The position numbers and the translations under genes were made by a program. A model generated the notes under the pieces. It had not been told where the DNA came from and did not search any database. It saw only the letters and a program-made list of their open reading frames with translations. Positions 5,635-11,331 of a stretch of 64,000 nt of DNA are shown piece by piece. The stretch comes from Herbidospora cretacea (GTDB lineage: Bacteria; Actinomycetota; Actinomycetes; Streptosporangiales; Streptosporangiaceae). Within the stretch, counting starts at the first letter, position 1, and the number at the start of each line of letters is the position of its first letter. The DNA is taken from positions 420,119-484,118 of the forward strand of contig NZ_BBXG01000008.1 in assembly GCF_001570605.1 (NCBI RefSeq), written 5' to 3'.

Positions 5635-6297
5635 ATGCTGCTGCGGCTGCGGATCGCGCTGCCAGACCGTCCCGGCGCCCTCGGCGCCGTCACCCAGGCC
5701 CTCGGTGTCGCGGGCGCCGACATCATCCAGGTCGTCGTGCTCGACCGCGGCGACGAGCGGGCGGTCGACGACTTCACCGTCGCCTGGCCCGACGCCGCGC
5801 CCCGGGAGCACCTCGTCCGGGCGCTCGACGAGATCCCCGACATCAAGGTCGAGGGCGTCTGGGCCACCCGGGAGGCCCCGGGCACCTACCCGGAGCTGGA
5901 GATCCTCAAGTTCCTGACCACCGCCGGAGACCGCGCGCTGGCCACCCTGGTCGACGCGATGCCGGTGATGTTCAGCGCCGACTGGGCCGCCTGCGCGACC
6001 GAGCGGGCCCACGAGGTGGTCTGTTCGAGCTGGCGGGCCCCCGAGGCGGTCCGGTTCCCGGAGCCGGCCCCGTCCCGGCCGGTGGCCGCGACGCTGGAGT
6101 CGGGGGTCCACGTGATCCACGCCCCGCTGCCGCCGCTGGCCCTGACGCTGCTGCTGGCCCGGGTCGAGGGGCCGGCCTTCCACCGGACCGAGGTGACCCG
6201 GCTGGCCCGGATCCTCGACATCTTCCTGCTGCTGCCGGCGATCGAAGAAGGGGCCGAACGGGCTTTCCGTTCCACGAATTCGGCCAACTATTTGTAA
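5635..6297 (+). CDS. ACT-domain amino-acid-binding protein
   Basis: 220 residues. The first 75 or so form an ACT domain (LRLRIALPDRPGALGAVTQA, then ADIIQVVVLD), the small-ligand sensing fold usually binding amino acids. The C-terminal 130 residues are less conserved and include a second beta/alpha region ending in a leucine-rich helix (LARILDIFLLLPAIEE). There is no catalytic partner domain, so it is a stand-alone ACT protein, probably regulatory. It is divergent from dusB and followed by an A/T-rich stretch at 6298-6368 that could hold the promoter of the GTPase cassette. Confidence 0.82.
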   Translation: MLLRLRIALPDRPGALGAVTQALGVAGADIIQVVVLDRGDERAVDDFTVAWPDAAPREHLVRALDEIPDIKVEGVWATREAPGTYPELEILKFLTTAGDRALATLVDAMPVMFSADWAACATERAHEVVCSSWRAPEAVRFPEPAPSRPVAATLESGVHVIHAPLPPLALTLLLARVEGPAFHRTEVTRLARILDIFLLLPAIEEGAERAFRSTNSANYL

Positions 6298-6368
6298 TAG
6301 GATTGCAGCGGAATAACAATTAGTCCCGGTTTTCACCGCCTTAACACGGCGTCGCATTGACTCGCCTC

Positions 6369-8651
6369 ATGGCGAACAACGGAAGTGACTTCATCGCCGG
6401 GGAGATCAGGTCGCTACTGACCACCCGCAGGGCTCTGCTGCCGGGTGTCCAGGCGAAGATCGCGGCCTGGCGCGACACCGACCAGACGTTGGTGGAACTC
6501 GCCAGGGCGCTCGACCTGCTGCGGGAACACCCGTCGATCGACACCGACATGGCAAGCACGCTCACCCTGCCCCAGATCGCCGAACTGCGAAGTCAGATCG
6601 CCCTGACAATCGAGCAGCTGACCGCAGTGGAGGCGCGCTTCTCCCGCGACACGGTCAACATCGGGGTCAGCGGCAGCGCCCGCATGGGCAAGTCGACGCT
6701 GCTGCAGTCGGTGTCCGGCCTCGACGACCGGCAGGTCCCGACCGGCCGGGACCTGCCGGTCACCGCGGTCCGCAGCCGCATCTATCACTCGGCGACCGCC
6801 AGGCGCGCGATACTGAAACTCCATTCGCGGGAATCATTCTTAAACGAGATTATTCACCCATATCACCAGGAACTGGGAATTGCCGAGCTCCCTCGCACGA
6901 TTGATGAGTTCCGAAACCATCAGTACCCGGCCGCGACCCCCGATCTGGATCCTGATCTGGTACCGCTGCTGCGGCGGCTGCGCGAGGCGCACGAGGCGCT
7001 GTGGTCCTACGAGAAGGACCTGACCGGTGGAGAGATGACCGTGGACCTCGACGAGGTTCGCCAGTTCATCGCCTACCCCACTCATGAGGACAAATCAACC
7101 GTCACCGCTGTCGCCCGGCGCTACCTGGCGGTCCGCGATGCCCGCATCGACTGCGCGTTCCCTCACCCCGGAGTCGAACACCTGGGCATCGTCGACCTTC
7201 CCGGTCTGGGGGAGATCGCGCTGGAGGCCGAGGAGCACCATGTGCGCGGCTTGCAGCACGAAGTCGACGTCGTGCTGCTGGTGAAGAGGGCGCTGGAAGG
7301 GGCCGCATACTGGACGGCCGCCGACGGCCGCACCCTGAAGCTGCTCGACCGGGCGCGGGGGCCGATCGCGAACCGGGGTGACTTCGTCTTCCTCGTCGTC
7401 AACACCCCCGTGGGCGCGGAGTCCCTGGCCGAGCCGATGCGTGCGCACATGATGGAGAACGTCAACGACGGGCACCCGGGCAAATTCTTCACGATGCTCG
7501 ACACGAACGCGGACGACCCCGATTCGGTCCGAGCCAGTGTCCTGACACCGTTGCTCCACGCCCTCGCCACCCGCCTGCCGATCATGGACTCCGAATACCT
7601 GTCCGGCGCCGAGGAGTCCGCGAGCTCGACCAGGGCATCCCTGACCTCGGCACTCGGCGACCTCCAGGAGGCCATCCGCGGCATCCGCACGACGGGCGTC
7701 GACGAGATCGAATCGATCCAGGACAACGCGGCCAAGCTCCGCAAGAAGCTCGCCGTCGGATTGAAGAAGCTGGTCAGGCGGCTGCGCGTCCGGGCCATGT
7801 CCGAAGACGACGATCCCGAGTACGTCACGGCCATCACCGATGTCTACAACAACGTGTCGACCTGGATCGACGGCGGATTCGGAGTCGGCGAGGAGGCCTG
7901 GCTCGAAGAGGCCATGGAGACGTTCGACGCCGAGGAAGGCTTCGGGAAGTTCACCGACGACAACTTCAACCACATCCGCGTCGAGATCGCCCGCCGGTTC
8001 GCCGAACTGGACAAGTTCTACTCGGGTCAGATCGAGGACGCCCGGCGTGAGGTCGGGCTGGTCATTCGCACGCACACGGGCGTCCTGCTCGACGGGGAGG
8101 GCTCGTCCCTCCTGCGCGACCTCGCGGAATGTCTGGACAACCCACGCCTGCCGTGCCCGGCGATGCACGCCGCAGTGACGGGGCTGCTGGATCTTCGCAT
8201 GGAGTACCGCAATCACCTCCATCCCCGGCTGCGCCCTCATCTCGACTATCTGCAGATGGCCCATCGAGACCCTCGTGACGGCGAGCCCACTCGTGGTGTC
8301 GATCTCATGGCGGACGAGGAAGGCGCTCACACCTTCTACAAGCACTGCCAGAAGATGGCCCACAAGTCCGCCTACGAGATCCGCAAAGCGCTGCTACAGG
8401 GCGAGGTAACGCCGGTCCAGGTGACGTACGCAGCGGTGGAGCACTTCGTGGACGTCCTCATCCGCTCGGGCAAGTCCGGTGACTCACCTGGCTCCATACG
8501 GGAATTCGAGCGCCTGGCCCGCGCCTATCGCAACGAGATCTGGCCCGGTGTCTACCAGGGCATCGCCGAAGGAAACGTCCGGCACGACCGGGTGATCACA
8601 CTGATCGAGACCCTGCAGAAGAAAATCGACGAAGCCGGGAGGGCCGCATGA
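6369..8651 (+). CDS. Large dynamin-like P-loop GTPase, first gene of a four-gene cassette
   Basis: 760 residues from ATG at 6369 (MANNGSDFIAGE); a TTG at 6357 would add four residues. After a roughly 95-residue helical lead comes a Walker A loop GVSGSARMGKST (about 99-110), a switch-I threonine in DLPVTAVRS, and a Walker B/G3 motif DLPGLGE (about 275-281). The usual G4 NKxD is replaced by VVNTPV. The C-terminal half is mostly charged helices with a possible short hydrophobic element, a dynamin/SrfC-like layout. Its stop overlaps the next ATG (ATGA, 8648-8651), so the genes are translationally coupled. Membrane remodelling or conflict-system roles are inference from architecture only. Confidence 0.8.
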   Translation: MANNGSDFIAGEIRSLLTTRRALLPGVQAKIAAWRDTDQTLVELARALDLLREHPSIDTDMASTLTLPQIAELRSQIALTIEQLTAVEARFSRDTVNIGVSGSARMGKSTLLQSVSGLDDRQVPTGRDLPVTAVRSRIYHSATARRAILKLHSRESFLNEIIHPYHQELGIAELPRTIDEFRNHQYPAATPDLDPDLVPLLRRLREAHEALWSYEKDLTGGEMTVDLDEVRQFIAYPTHEDKSTVTAVARRYLAVRDARIDCAFPHPGVEHLGIVDLPGLGEIALEAEEHHVRGLQHEVDVVLLVKRALEGAAYWTAADGRTLKLLDRARGPIANRGDFVFLVVNTPVGAESLAEPMRAHMMENVNDGHPGKFFTMLDTNADDPDSVRASVLTPLLHALATRLPIMDSEYLSGAEESASSTRASLTSALGDLQEAIRGIRTTGVDEIESIQDNAAKLRKKLAVGLKKLVRRLRVRAMSEDDDPEYVTAITDVYNNVSTWIDGGFGVGEEAWLEEAMETFDAEEGFGKFTDDNFNHIRVEIARRFAELDKFYSGQIEDARREVGLVIRTHTGVLLDGEGSSLLRDLAECLDNPRLPCPAMHAAVTGLLDLRMEYRNHLHPRLRPHLDYLQMAHRDPRDGEPTRGVDLMADEEGAHTFYKHCQKMAHKSAYEIRKALLQGEVTPVQVTYAAVEHFVDVLIRSGKSGDSPGSIREFERLARAYRNEIWPGVYQGIAEGNVRHDRVITLIETLQKKIDEAGRAA

Positions 8652-9772
8652 CCCAGCAGGTCGCGTTCAAGGTGGGCCTGCTCGGTCCCTCCCGCGTCGG
8701 GAAGACGTCCCTGATCACCGCGCTCTTCTCCGAGGCCCAGCAGTTGCTGGCCGGAAGCGGGGTCGCGATGATGCCCGACGGCCGGGCCACCGACGACAAG
8801 ATCGCCGCCAACCGGGAGCAGCTCCAGGGCGACATCCTCGCCAGGGAGTTCTCGCCCGGAAGCCTCGCGGGCAACCTGGAGCCGTTCACCTTCAAGTTCG
8901 TCCTCGACCCCGGGGTCGCGGGCGCGCGGATCGGCATCGAGTTGCTCGACTTCCCGGGCGGCTGGCTCGACGGACGGGTGCGCAATTCACAGTCCGACGC
9001 CGACTGGGAGTCCTGCCGGGCGTTCATCACCCAGAGCACCGTTCTGCTGGTGCCGGTCGACGCGGCCCTGCTGATGGAGACCTTCGAGAAGCAGCACATC
9101 AGGTTGCTGCCCAGGTTCCTCACCACCGCCCAGGTCGACGAGGTGGTCCGGGAATGGGCCGTCAATCGCGCCAGGAGACCACACGAGCCGGCGCTGATCG
9201 CGTTCGCGCCGGTCAAATGTGAGGCCTACTTCAACGACAACGGCGGTCTCCGCAATCAGTCGCACCAACTTCGGAAGAAGTTCGACAGCGTCTACAAGGA
9301 CGTCGTCGCGACGGTCCGGGCCAACGCCCCCCACGCACAACTCCTCTACACCCCGATCGACACGATCGGCTGCGTGGAGATGGTCAAGGCAGCCTGGAAA
9401 CAGGTCGACGACGCCTGGACCTTCGACGCCATGTACCACGTCCGCAACGATCGGACGATCTCTCGGCTCGGTGCGAAAGACCTGATGACCGCGCTGTGCC
9501 AGCAGCTCATCCACGGCAAGCGGATGATGACGGCGGACGAGTCGGAGATTCTCCGCCAGCGGGCCGTCCAGGCTCGCGAACTGGCCGAACGCAGTGAGGG
9601 GTTCTTCCGCGACATCCTGATGTGGCTTAACCGGGAACGGCAGGCCCGGAACGACGCGGCGACCAGACGCGACCAGGAGTCCCAGGAGGTGGAGCGGCGT
9701 CTGATCGCTCTCGACGACGTCCTTCAGAGGATCGCCAACCGCCCGTTCGGCCCGCGCGTGCAGCGCCTCTAG
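8648..9772 (+). CDS. Second P-loop GTPase (Double-GTPase-like), coupled to the first
   Basis: 374 residues. The Walker A motif GPSRVGKT is at 13-20 and the G3 element LLDFPGGWL near 100-108, where DFPG takes the place of DxxG. A candidate G4 is APVKCE (about residue 193), a degenerate form of the TKxD class. The C-terminal 90 residues form a likely coiled coil (LRQRAVQARELAERSEG, then NRERQARNDAATRRDQE). The DFPGGW signature resembles the DO-GTPase families described in bacterial conflict systems, but I cannot run a profile search. It starts within the stop of the preceding gene and is followed after 9 bases by the membrane-protein gene. Confidence 0.78.
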   Translation: MTQQVAFKVGLLGPSRVGKTSLITALFSEAQQLLAGSGVAMMPDGRATDDKIAANREQLQGDILAREFSPGSLAGNLEPFTFKFVLDPGVAGARIGIELLDFPGGWLDGRVRNSQSDADWESCRAFITQSTVLLVPVDAALLMETFEKQHIRLLPRFLTTAQVDEVVREWAVNRARRPHEPALIAFAPVKCEAYFNDNGGLRNQSHQLRKKFDSVYKDVVATVRANAPHAQLLYTPIDTIGCVEMVKAAWKQVDDAWTFDAMYHVRNDRTISRLGAKDLMTALCQQLIHGKRMMTADESEILRQRAVQARELAERSEGFFRDILMWLNRERQARNDAATRRDQESQEVERRLIALDDVLQRIANRPFGPRVQRL

Positions 9773-9781
9773 GGGGCCGGG

Positions 9782-10792
9782 GTGCGCGTCTACCTGCGGA
9801 CCCGAGGTCATGACGTCGACTACGGGTTCATCGGCACCAGCCCGCCCCAAGCCTGGTGGCGGAAGTACAAGGACCTTCAGCTCACCGACATCGAAGCTCC
9901 GGTCGTGCTGGCGGAAGGCGATCACACGGGCTGGCGGGTCTATCTGCACGGCCTCGACTCGGGCCGGCGGGACAACCGGACCACTCTGATCAGATACGGC
10001 GTCGTGCTGGAGGGCACGGCCGACGATGACACTGCAACGGCCTATGGAATCGTCCGGGCCTGGCTGACGGCGATCACCACAGGGTCGGCAGACCTCGGCG
10101 AAGCGCTGGACAGGGCTCTCGCTCCGGTCGATCCGCTTCTGGTCGCCGAAAGCAGTGAGGACGTCAAGGCGGCCCGGGAGAAGGCCGAGGCGGCGGTCCG
10201 CGTGGCTTTCGAACCGGCCGACCTGACTGCCGGTGACCATTCCGCCCGCTGGCTGGGAGACATCGACGAGGCGAACGACCAGATCGCCTTCATGGGAGTG
10301 GTGGGCAGGTTGCTGTCCGGGCGCCCGGGGCGGGCGCTCGTCCTCACCTTCGCGGAGACTCCCGAAGATGTGGCCGGCCTGACCATGAAGGAACCGGGTG
10401 ACCTTGCTCTGCTGACCGCCCGGCCTGGCCGGGTGCCCGCCGGGGGGCGACATGTCTTGGGAAAAGCCCAGGAGGCCCACCTGCCGCCGGTGGGCCGGAC
10501 GGAGCGAGAACGACCGAGAGAAGGGCGGCCGCCGCGGAAACCGCGAATGGCGATTCCGCTGGCGCTGACTGCGACCCTGACGCTGGGGGCCACCGGGATG
10601 GGTCTGTATCTGAACTCGAGCGATCAGCCCCTCCCGGCCCCGATGGTGACGAACTCGGCGACACCGATGGCCACACCGGATCCGCTGCCGACACCAACAC
10701 TGAAACCGACGCCGAAACCGAAGAAAACCCCGAAACCGAAGAAGTCCCCGAAGTCGAAGAAGTCCCCGCCACCCGCGGAAGGCGATGGCTGA
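9782..10792 (+). CDS. Single-pass membrane protein with a Lys/Pro-rich tail, GTPase-cassette partner
   Basis: 336 residues from GTG at 9782. The N-terminal 215 residues look globular (MRVYLRTRGHDVDYGFIGTS, later LIRYGVVLEG and RALVLTFAET), then a basic linker (RERPREGRPPRKPR), one transmembrane segment (AIPLALTATLTLGATGMGLY, about 257-276) and a 60-residue low-complexity tail built from TP, KPKK and KSPK units ending at residue 336. By the positive-inside rule the folded N-terminal domain is cytosolic, with the GTPases, and the Lys/Pro tail is outside. No family recognised. The wall-threading tail suggests contact with the envelope, which is inference. Confidence 0.72.
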   Translation: MRVYLRTRGHDVDYGFIGTSPPQAWWRKYKDLQLTDIEAPVVLAEGDHTGWRVYLHGLDSGRRDNRTTLIRYGVVLEGTADDDTATAYGIVRAWLTAITTGSADLGEALDRALAPVDPLLVAESSEDVKAAREKAEAAVRVAFEPADLTAGDHSARWLGDIDEANDQIAFMGVVGRLLSGRPGRALVLTFAETPEDVAGLTMKEPGDLALLTARPGRVPAGGRHVLGKAQEAHLPPVGRTERERPREGRPPRKPRMAIPLALTATLTLGATGMGLYLNSSDQPLPAPMVTNSATPMATPDPLPTPTLKPTPKPKKTPKPKKSPKSKKSPPPAEGDG

Positions 10793-10803
10793 CGCGGCGC
10801 ACC

Positions 10804-11331
10804 ATGCAGATATCACTGCGGGACGCACCCACCCTAAACGTCTGGATCACCTGGACCAGCTCCGACGGCATCGTGGCCACAGGTGTGGTGAGCAGTCCGG
10901 GCTGGTCGGGCGCCCTGCTCGTCGAATGGAAGGAGGCGCTGCCCGGCGAGGATCTCCGAAAGATCCCCGGCGTGGTGACGTCCAGACTTCCCTTCCTCAA
11001 GGCCCCATTGGACCGGTTCTGGTCGGAGATTGACCGACACACGCCAGACTTGGCGCTGCCGGTGGATTTCGACTGGATCAAGCAGGCCGTGTTCGGTTAC
11101 ACCTGCCATCGACTGTGGCTGGACCTGGTCACCGATGATGGCGTGACGATCCAGAGCAAGGACGGGCCGCCCCATGCGATCAAGCCGAAGGAGGGCGGCC
11201 CGTTTCCCGGCAGCGCTACCTATCTGCTGGAGTGCACGGTGGACGGCGCTCCGCTCAAGATCGTGATCCACAGCGACGGCCTGCCTCATCCGAAGGATTT
11301 CCCGCGGATATGGACCCCTCAGTCGACGTGA
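10804..11331 (+). CDS. Unknown protein, last gene of the GTPase cassette
   Basis: 175 residues, ATG at 10804, 11 bases after the previous stop. The sequence has normal globular composition with several tryptophans (NVWITWTSSDG, SPGWSGALLVEW, RFWSEID) and a conserved-looking core PVDFDWIKQAVFGY followed by HRLWLDLV. No signal peptide, membrane segment or catalytic motif is apparent. It ends 13 bases inside the convergent oxidoreductase gene. Position and strand make it the fourth member of the cassette. No function can be named. Confidence 0.68.
   Translation: MQISLRDAPTLNVWITWTSSDGIVATGVVSSPGWSGALLVEWKEALPGEDLRKIPGVVTSRLPFLKAPLDRFWSEIDRHTPDLALPVDFDWIKQAVFGYTCHRLWLDLVTDDGVTIQSKDGPPHAIKPKEGGPFPGSATYLLECTVDGAPLKIVIHSDGLPHPKDFPRIWTPQST

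Follow-up and report, generated by a model that had tools for sequence, protein, structure and literature searches.

A stretch of 64,000 nucleotides from the 8.28 Mb genome of Herbidospora cretacea (positions 420,119 to 484,118 of contig NZ_BBXG01000008.1, hereafter referred to as the window) carries a tight operon of four genes on the forward strand, tentatively referred to as A, B, C, and D. This membrane GTPase module is real, conserved between genomes, and exchanged, and its best reading is a guard or immunity switch. A is predicted to be a dynamin-like GTPase, B a small GTPase distantly related to DO-GTPase2, C a membrane-anchored protein, and D a fast-evolving protein in the fourth slot. 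We hold with about even confidence that the block is a horizontally exchanged, membrane-anchored surveillance module built on two GTPases; its defence role is what we infer from genomic context.

Conserved Linkage of the A-B-C Genes

The linkage of A, B, and C exceeds chance. We scanned 84,980 species genomes with a six-row A alignment and two short peptide patterns, a non-exhaustive search that returned 77 loci from Actinobacteria, Proteobacteria, Cyanobacteria, Spirochaetes, Synergistota, Planctomycetes, and others (as judged by title). A was called at 75 of these, remote relatives included; 61 of the 75 carry B no more than 2.5 kb downstream, and C accompanies B at 56. The pooled set of both searches holds 87 non-duplicate loci with A, and at 42 of these A is at least 30% identical (pairwise) to that of the window. 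This set of 42, which spans several phyla, was found with A alone and linkage was counted afterwards: B is present at 38 loci, B and C together at 36, and A-B-C stand consecutively at 35. In these 35 loci the distances of A, B, and C correlate with one another (r 0.90-0.93, a value from which shared ancestry and species history have not been removed).

All four open reading frames were confirmed at the positions and spacing given in the first-pass annotation of this DNA, which was made from the sequence alone (Table 1). An alternative in-frame TTG lies 12 bases 5' of the ATG of A, and a promoter scan found none. The first-pass annotation had also named conserved co-occurrence of all four genes elsewhere as support for its reading; this holds for A-B-C, but not for D, which is not conserved by sequence.

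Table 1. Positions of the A-D genes, their motifs, and the accessory block in the window.
Feature	Coordinates	Strand	Remarks
A, putative bacterial dynamin-like GTPase	6369..8651	+	760 amino acids, ATG start
A P-loop GSARMGKS	6672..6695	+	G, G, K, and S each in 67/68 rows; remaining row is a gap
A G3 motif DLPGLG	7194..7211	+	D, P, and G in 68/68 rows; L in 63
B, small GTPase, putative DO-GTPase2 relative	8648..9772	+	374 amino acids; 4-base ATGA overlap with A
B DFPGGW (G3 region)	8948..8965	+	D and G in 62/62 rows; W in 48
B PVKCEAY	9209..9229	+	P and E in 62/62 rows; C in 61; Y in 59; K in 58
C, cytosolic alpha/beta domain, one membrane helix, and variable tail	9782..10792	+	336 amino acids; 9-base gap after B
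C predicted membrane helix	10550..10606	+	residues 257-275, after an Arg/Lys-rich stretch
D, fast-evolving fourth-slot protein	10804..11331	+	175 amino acids; 11-base gap after C
Accessory block	~6273..11314		from alignment; site empty in 5/7 same-genus genomes (own included in the 7)

Three layouts of the block were found, namely A-B-C(-D) (type I), A-B-C' (type II), and GTPase-C''-A (type III). Within the order, A is present in 15 of 297 genomes and B in 11, and all 11 B matches adjoin an A match. In the class-level search, 58 of 394 genomes match A, six of them (own included) over most of its length and the other 52 only in fragments of its GTPase region. A housekeeping role is ruled out by the presence of A in just those 15 of 297 genomes.

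At one locus (L108:8980-15573), two layouts adjoin: type-III C'' and GTPase genes come after a type-I A-B-C block, in convergent orientation.

Protein A

By the fold of its AlphaFold2 model (built from a 68-row alignment, mean predicted local distance difference test score (pLDDT) of 89), A is a bacterial dynamin-like protein. Its top Foldseek match is BDLP (2j69, E 2.7e-13), and comparison by VIA ranks mitofusin-1 first (5yew, Z 21.5, 337 residues aligned, root-mean-square deviation (RMSD) 5.4), followed by SynDLP MGD (9em9, Z 20.9), full SynDLP (7zw6, Z 19.3, 625 aligned, RMSD 26.1), IniA (6j72, Z 18.7), a bacterial dynamin pair (5oxf, Z 18.3), and BDLP (Z 16.3). The RMSD to full SynDLP implies that the domains are differently arranged, and because whole-chain RMSD is high, only a dynamin's domain make-up is claimed for A, i.e., in the model, a GTPase domain with P-loop and DxPG and a helical neck/stalk in dynamin arrangement. 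At least 67 of the 68 rows retain each of T132, N345, D-x-P-G, and the G, K, and S of the P-loop. A has no strong hydrophobic stretch of its own (maximum 19-residue hydropathy 1.15).

In sequence searches, Pfam Dynamin_N matches at E 0.0016, under its cut-off, and PDB sequence profiles give weak rows for SynDLP (0.0018) and Irgb10 (0.002). The top PDB-profile row, a TetR protein at 0.00014, was taken as a chance match. At two loci (L139 and L150), A homologs were called at 1305 amino acids, perhaps a cyanobacterial fusion.

Protein B

B appears by sequence to be a distant DO-GTPase2 relative. The B of the window matches Pfam DO-GTPase2 (PF19993) at E 0.0017 and 18.5 bits, not reaching the curated cut-off of 27, and its other Pfam matches (MMR_HSR1 and others) are likewise sub-threshold; across the family, 43 of 62 B members, that of the window included, reach DO-GTPase2 at E≤0.01, with 4.1e-12 as the lowest value, and one of the 62 matches DO-GTPase1. 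PDB sequence profiles returned rows that were taken as generic P-loop or chance matches. The claim of two unlike GTPases with no housekeeping match was borne out.

The P-loop of B (GPSRVGKT) is intact, with its lysine in 61 of 62 rows and a gap in the remaining one, and the motifs D-F/Y-P-G and P-x-K-C-E-x-Y are almost constant among B members. The latter (PVKCEAY in the window) perhaps stands in place of the NKxD (G4) motif. DFPGGW had initially been taken as a DO-GTPase signature, which did not hold: on another contig, the same genome carries a separate GAP1-N2 locus (~360-365 kb on contig C6 of G000) with two proteins over the DO-GTPase2 cut-off, and these read DTAGE and DPSGE. Passages of Kaur et al. 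(2020; PMC7159879) describe a conserved Walker B glutamate in DO-GTPases; a glutamate at the fifth position of the DFPGGW site is found in 7 of 62 B rows and is absent from the B of the window.

At eight loci from a spirochaete and several Synergistota (L103, L141, L151, and L153-L157), A and C are separated by two B genes, in keeping with B functioning as a heterodimer.

Proteins C and D

As judged from sequence, C is usually tail-anchored. A strong helix (hydropathy >1.6) lies after residue 150 in 36 of 39 C alignment rows, the exceptions being the window copy, L106, and L108, and in 28 of those 36 it lies within 16 residues of the C-terminal end. The helix of the window copy is modest (19-residue hydropathy 1.42). 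Together with the predicted dynamin fold of A, the helix of C supports the envelope linkage suggested earlier. The Lys/Pro tail, which had been listed as a feature of C, is one of several variable ends and is not conserved among members; an N_BRCA1_IG domain occurs in 2 and WD40 in 1 of 55 C members.

The predicted model of C, with residues 1-220 mostly at pLDDT >90, weakly suggests a cytosolic domain similar to longin/roadblock folds of GTPase regulators, and longin or roadblock chains (from a reading of titles) make up 38 of 50 VIA rows among the matches listed. Against this, VIA ranks TagF first, which is no longin protein and reaches a weak Z of 3.6, and since all Z values for C are below 4 the longin/roadblock fold is a lead and not an assignment. 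No PDB chain reaches E≤0.001 in Foldseek (TagF again comes closest, at 0.0034), no Pfam family matches C at E≤1, and the rows from PDB sequence profiles were taken as generic P-loop or chance matches. A profile comparison aligned the N-termini of type-I and type-II C only weakly (P 0.0038); iterated searches join the two, with drift possible and hinted at by a few odd matches. Type-III C'' gave no useful alignment with C of either type.

It is the slot of D that is conserved, not its sequence. A small same-strand gene within 250 bases after C is found in 25 of 28 actinobacterial type-I loci, as counted with our own gene caller after the duplicates L084, L085, L101, and L104 were dropped. The caller left the slot empty in L028, L108, and L114, and a truncated D-like frame is visible in L028. 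In iterated searches the slot proteins fall into six groups of at least two plus several singletons, mutually unalignable; the D of the window groups with a same-genus relative only, and one group has repeats resembling, in our reading, tetratricopeptide repeats.

Accessory Status and Probable Horizontal Exchange

The block is accessory, and it was probably exchanged at its present site, as indicated by empty sites, low guanine-cytosine (GC) content, raised synonymous divergence (dS), and low identity relative to the flanks. The flanking DUS and epimerase-like genes are present in all seven same-genus genomes searched, separated by 5.7-5.8 kb in two of them and by ~0.7 kb, holding the ACT gene only, in five. 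The variable presence proposed earlier is thus seen both at this site and across the order. GC content falls to 65.8% in the block, from 71.2 and 70.9% on either side. When the two carriers are compared, dS reaches 0.49-0.89 for the block vs. 0.23-0.26 for four flanking genes (about 2-4 times higher), and amino-acid identity is 76% for A, 74% for B, 51% for C, and 40% for D vs. 93-96% for the flanks. C and D are the fastest-evolving proteins of the block. On a wider scale, A of Lampropedia and Gluconobacter (Proteobacteria) is 41-42% identical to that of the window, whereas some actinobacterial A are 33% identical, which suggests horizontal transfer.

No match to the block was found either among 50,697 phage records or in the viral contigs as searched, and a phage origin is ruled out on this basis. 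Among 72,556 plasmid records, 10 match and one does so over most of A, a full-length relative on a Streptomyces plasmid. It is very improbable that the block acts selfishly or on behalf of a mobile element, through addiction, transfer, or plasmid maintenance: its patchy presence and the Streptomyces plasmid copy would fit, but the scarcity of plasmid matches, the phage result, and the lack of space for a recombinase gene in a block taken up by A-D all argue against it.

CHAT, Caspase, and CATRA Genes near the Block

CHAT genes (Pfam) lie within 10 kb of the block in 7 of 28 actinobacterial type-I loci (L030, L089, L095, L098, L099, L102, and L112), and nearby in two type-II loci (L038 and L041). 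Caspase-domain genes are found near the block in L089, L102, and L112, and a TIR/SEFIR-NTPase gene in L100. Some of these genes are placed as in an operon: in L099 the CHAT gene shares 4 bases with D, in L038 a CHAT gene shares 4 bases with A, and in L089 a gap of 12 bases separates D from the CHAT gene, with the caspase gene 32 bases further. Across 228.5 Mb, the 27 type-I genomes counted (own included) hold 122 CHAT matches (no CHAT gene lies near L027, the 28th locus), from which 0.28 loci with CHAT within 10 kb of A would be expected and 7 were observed (P ~2e-8, or 5e-7 if the similar L089 and L102 are counted once), in a post hoc test chosen after the neighbours had been seen and not controlled for variable islands.

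Of 31 genomes searched, 12 contain CATRA-N genes, and a CATRA gene lies within 10 kb of A in five loci (L030, L095, L098, L099, and L108; 0.03 expected, likewise post hoc). CATRA is mentioned in an excerpt of Kaur et al. (2021; PMC8195603) as a caspase-dependent ternary conflict system. In L095 (14166-19188), a CHAT gene, a small gene, and a CATRA-like gene stand in a row downstream of the block. A PADLOC scan of 147 flanking-gene proteins (181 were eligible, 148 were drawn, and one more was left out) matched mads, PD-T4-6, MTase_II, and caspase; the scan had no control and therefore carries little weight.

Several observations weigh against reading the block as a surveillance module. CHAT and caspase or CATRA modules adjoin some relatives and not the block of the window, an association that is both partial and post hoc: the window copy lacks an adjoining CHAT gene, and of the five CHAT matches in its genome the sole one on the same contig is ~200 kb off. 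No CHAT gene is nearby in 21 of 28 actinobacterial type-I, 3 of 5 type-II, and 5 of 5 type-III loci, and among the remaining loci scanned CHAT occurs only in L131, ~6 kb away. CHAT genes and any accessory block may simply share variable islands. None of A, B, C, and D matches a PADLOC 2.0 family at E≤1, in a library whose inclusion of an Eleos model was not checked. Linkage also has exceptions: B is missing at 14 of the 75 loci, including six cyanobacterial and two contig-end cases, and at 4 of the 42, namely L033 (type III, at a contig edge), L120, L127 (contig end), and L138 (A in two pieces).

Proposed Mechanism and Its Alternatives

In the surveillance module that we favour, C would be seated in the membrane by its C-terminal helix, and its cytosolic longin/roadblock-like domain would hold and regulate B, a Ras-like switch related to DO-GTPases. 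Membrane disturbance or infection would then change the state of B, which would recruit or release A, and A, having no strong hydrophobic segment of its own, would assemble on the membrane. In the window copy, the end effect may be this assembly, which would seal, tether, or break the membrane. A minority of relatives may act through a CHAT/caspase-like or TIR-NTPase effector whose gene adjoins the block, with fast-changing D as its possible docking partner.

Small GTPases are held or regulated by roadblock/longin proteins in MglA-MglB and Rag-Ragulator, and Ragulator is membrane-anchored. By analogy, and quite tentatively, the block might be a membrane immune device resembling a miniature Rag-Ragulator joined to a dynamin, in which the tail-anchored longin/roadblock platform C would hold the Ras-like B, B would control assembly of the mitofusin-like dynamin A, and the adaptor D could release caspase-like CHAT proteases for programmed death. 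The likeness to Rag-Ragulator and MglA-MglB is one of mechanism, not of family, as no sequence relation was found and fold comparison of C reaches a Z of at most 3.6. If true, the surveillance reading would place bacterial dynamins, DO-GTPase relatives, and the CHAT proteases of some genomes in one common pathway that can be tested, and the known repertoire of prokaryotic immunity would gain a membrane-based switch; should the C-B pair be a roadblock-like GTPase platform, it would also bear on the origin of eukaryotic membrane GTPase control.

The bacterial dynamin-like proteins BDLP, SynDLP, IniA, and DynA share the fold predicted for A, and none of them is known to share its locus with genes for a Ras-like GTPase and a tail-anchored protein. 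Eleos is a dynamin-like defence system. It is mentioned in Actinobacteria in part of PMC10482375, and DynA of B. subtilis is reported in an excerpt of PMC8844932 to delay phage lysis, with an anti-phage role. Among the matches listed in open-access literature, no description of this gene combination was found, which agrees with the earlier view of the system as an undescribed type.

Since the nearest folds to A are membrane-remodelling dynamins, including IniA and SynDLP, the block could instead be an envelope-maintenance device with no immune role (IniA- or DynA-like repair under antibiotic or osmotic stress), in which C would anchor, B would gate, and D would tune. The window copy and most relatives, which have no effector gene beside them, fit this reading, as does the DO-GTPase found in some psp operons, for which a passage of PMC11237479 predicts a role in membrane stress. 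We nevertheless consider it rather unlikely, because the block, unlike core maintenance genes, has a patchy distribution and is exchanged at one fixed site, because C and D change rapidly, and because a minority of loci have CHAT neighbours.

The GAP1-N2/DO-GTPase systems also resemble the block: they include a DO-GTPase2-related GTPase, membrane-linked components, and a constant core with variable parts, and they are frequent in Actinobacteria. According to passages of Kaur et al. (2020; PMC7159879), GAP1/DO-GTPase conflict systems join GTPases to membrane parts and variable components, and, together with the profile match of B to DO-GTPase2, this would suit a divergent branch of these systems with C as a reduced GAP1. 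Such a branch is improbable. The called neighbourhood proteins gave no GAP1-N2 match (with a profile from eight same-genus sequences; GAP1-N1, GAP1-M, and GAP1-C were not searched), and by hhalign C does not align with the sequences of that profile, and on these two grounds GAP1 membership was ruled out. Moreover, the B of the window has DFPGGW where the GAP1-locus GTPases of the same genome have DxxGE, the block, unlike GAP1-N2 systems, has a dynamin-like protein and a tail-anchored C, and the word 'dynamin' is absent from the main text of PMC7159879.

Flanking Genes in the Window

Beyond the block, the flanks consist of helicase, DUS, ACT-domain, and epimerase-like genes (names are our own reading), which are unrelated to A-D, as had been noted from the sequence. 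The epimerase-like gene lies on the opposite strand and converges with D. At window positions 6240-6300, the C-terminus of the ACT-domain gene differs from its empty-site orthologs, as if the block had replaced its last codons.

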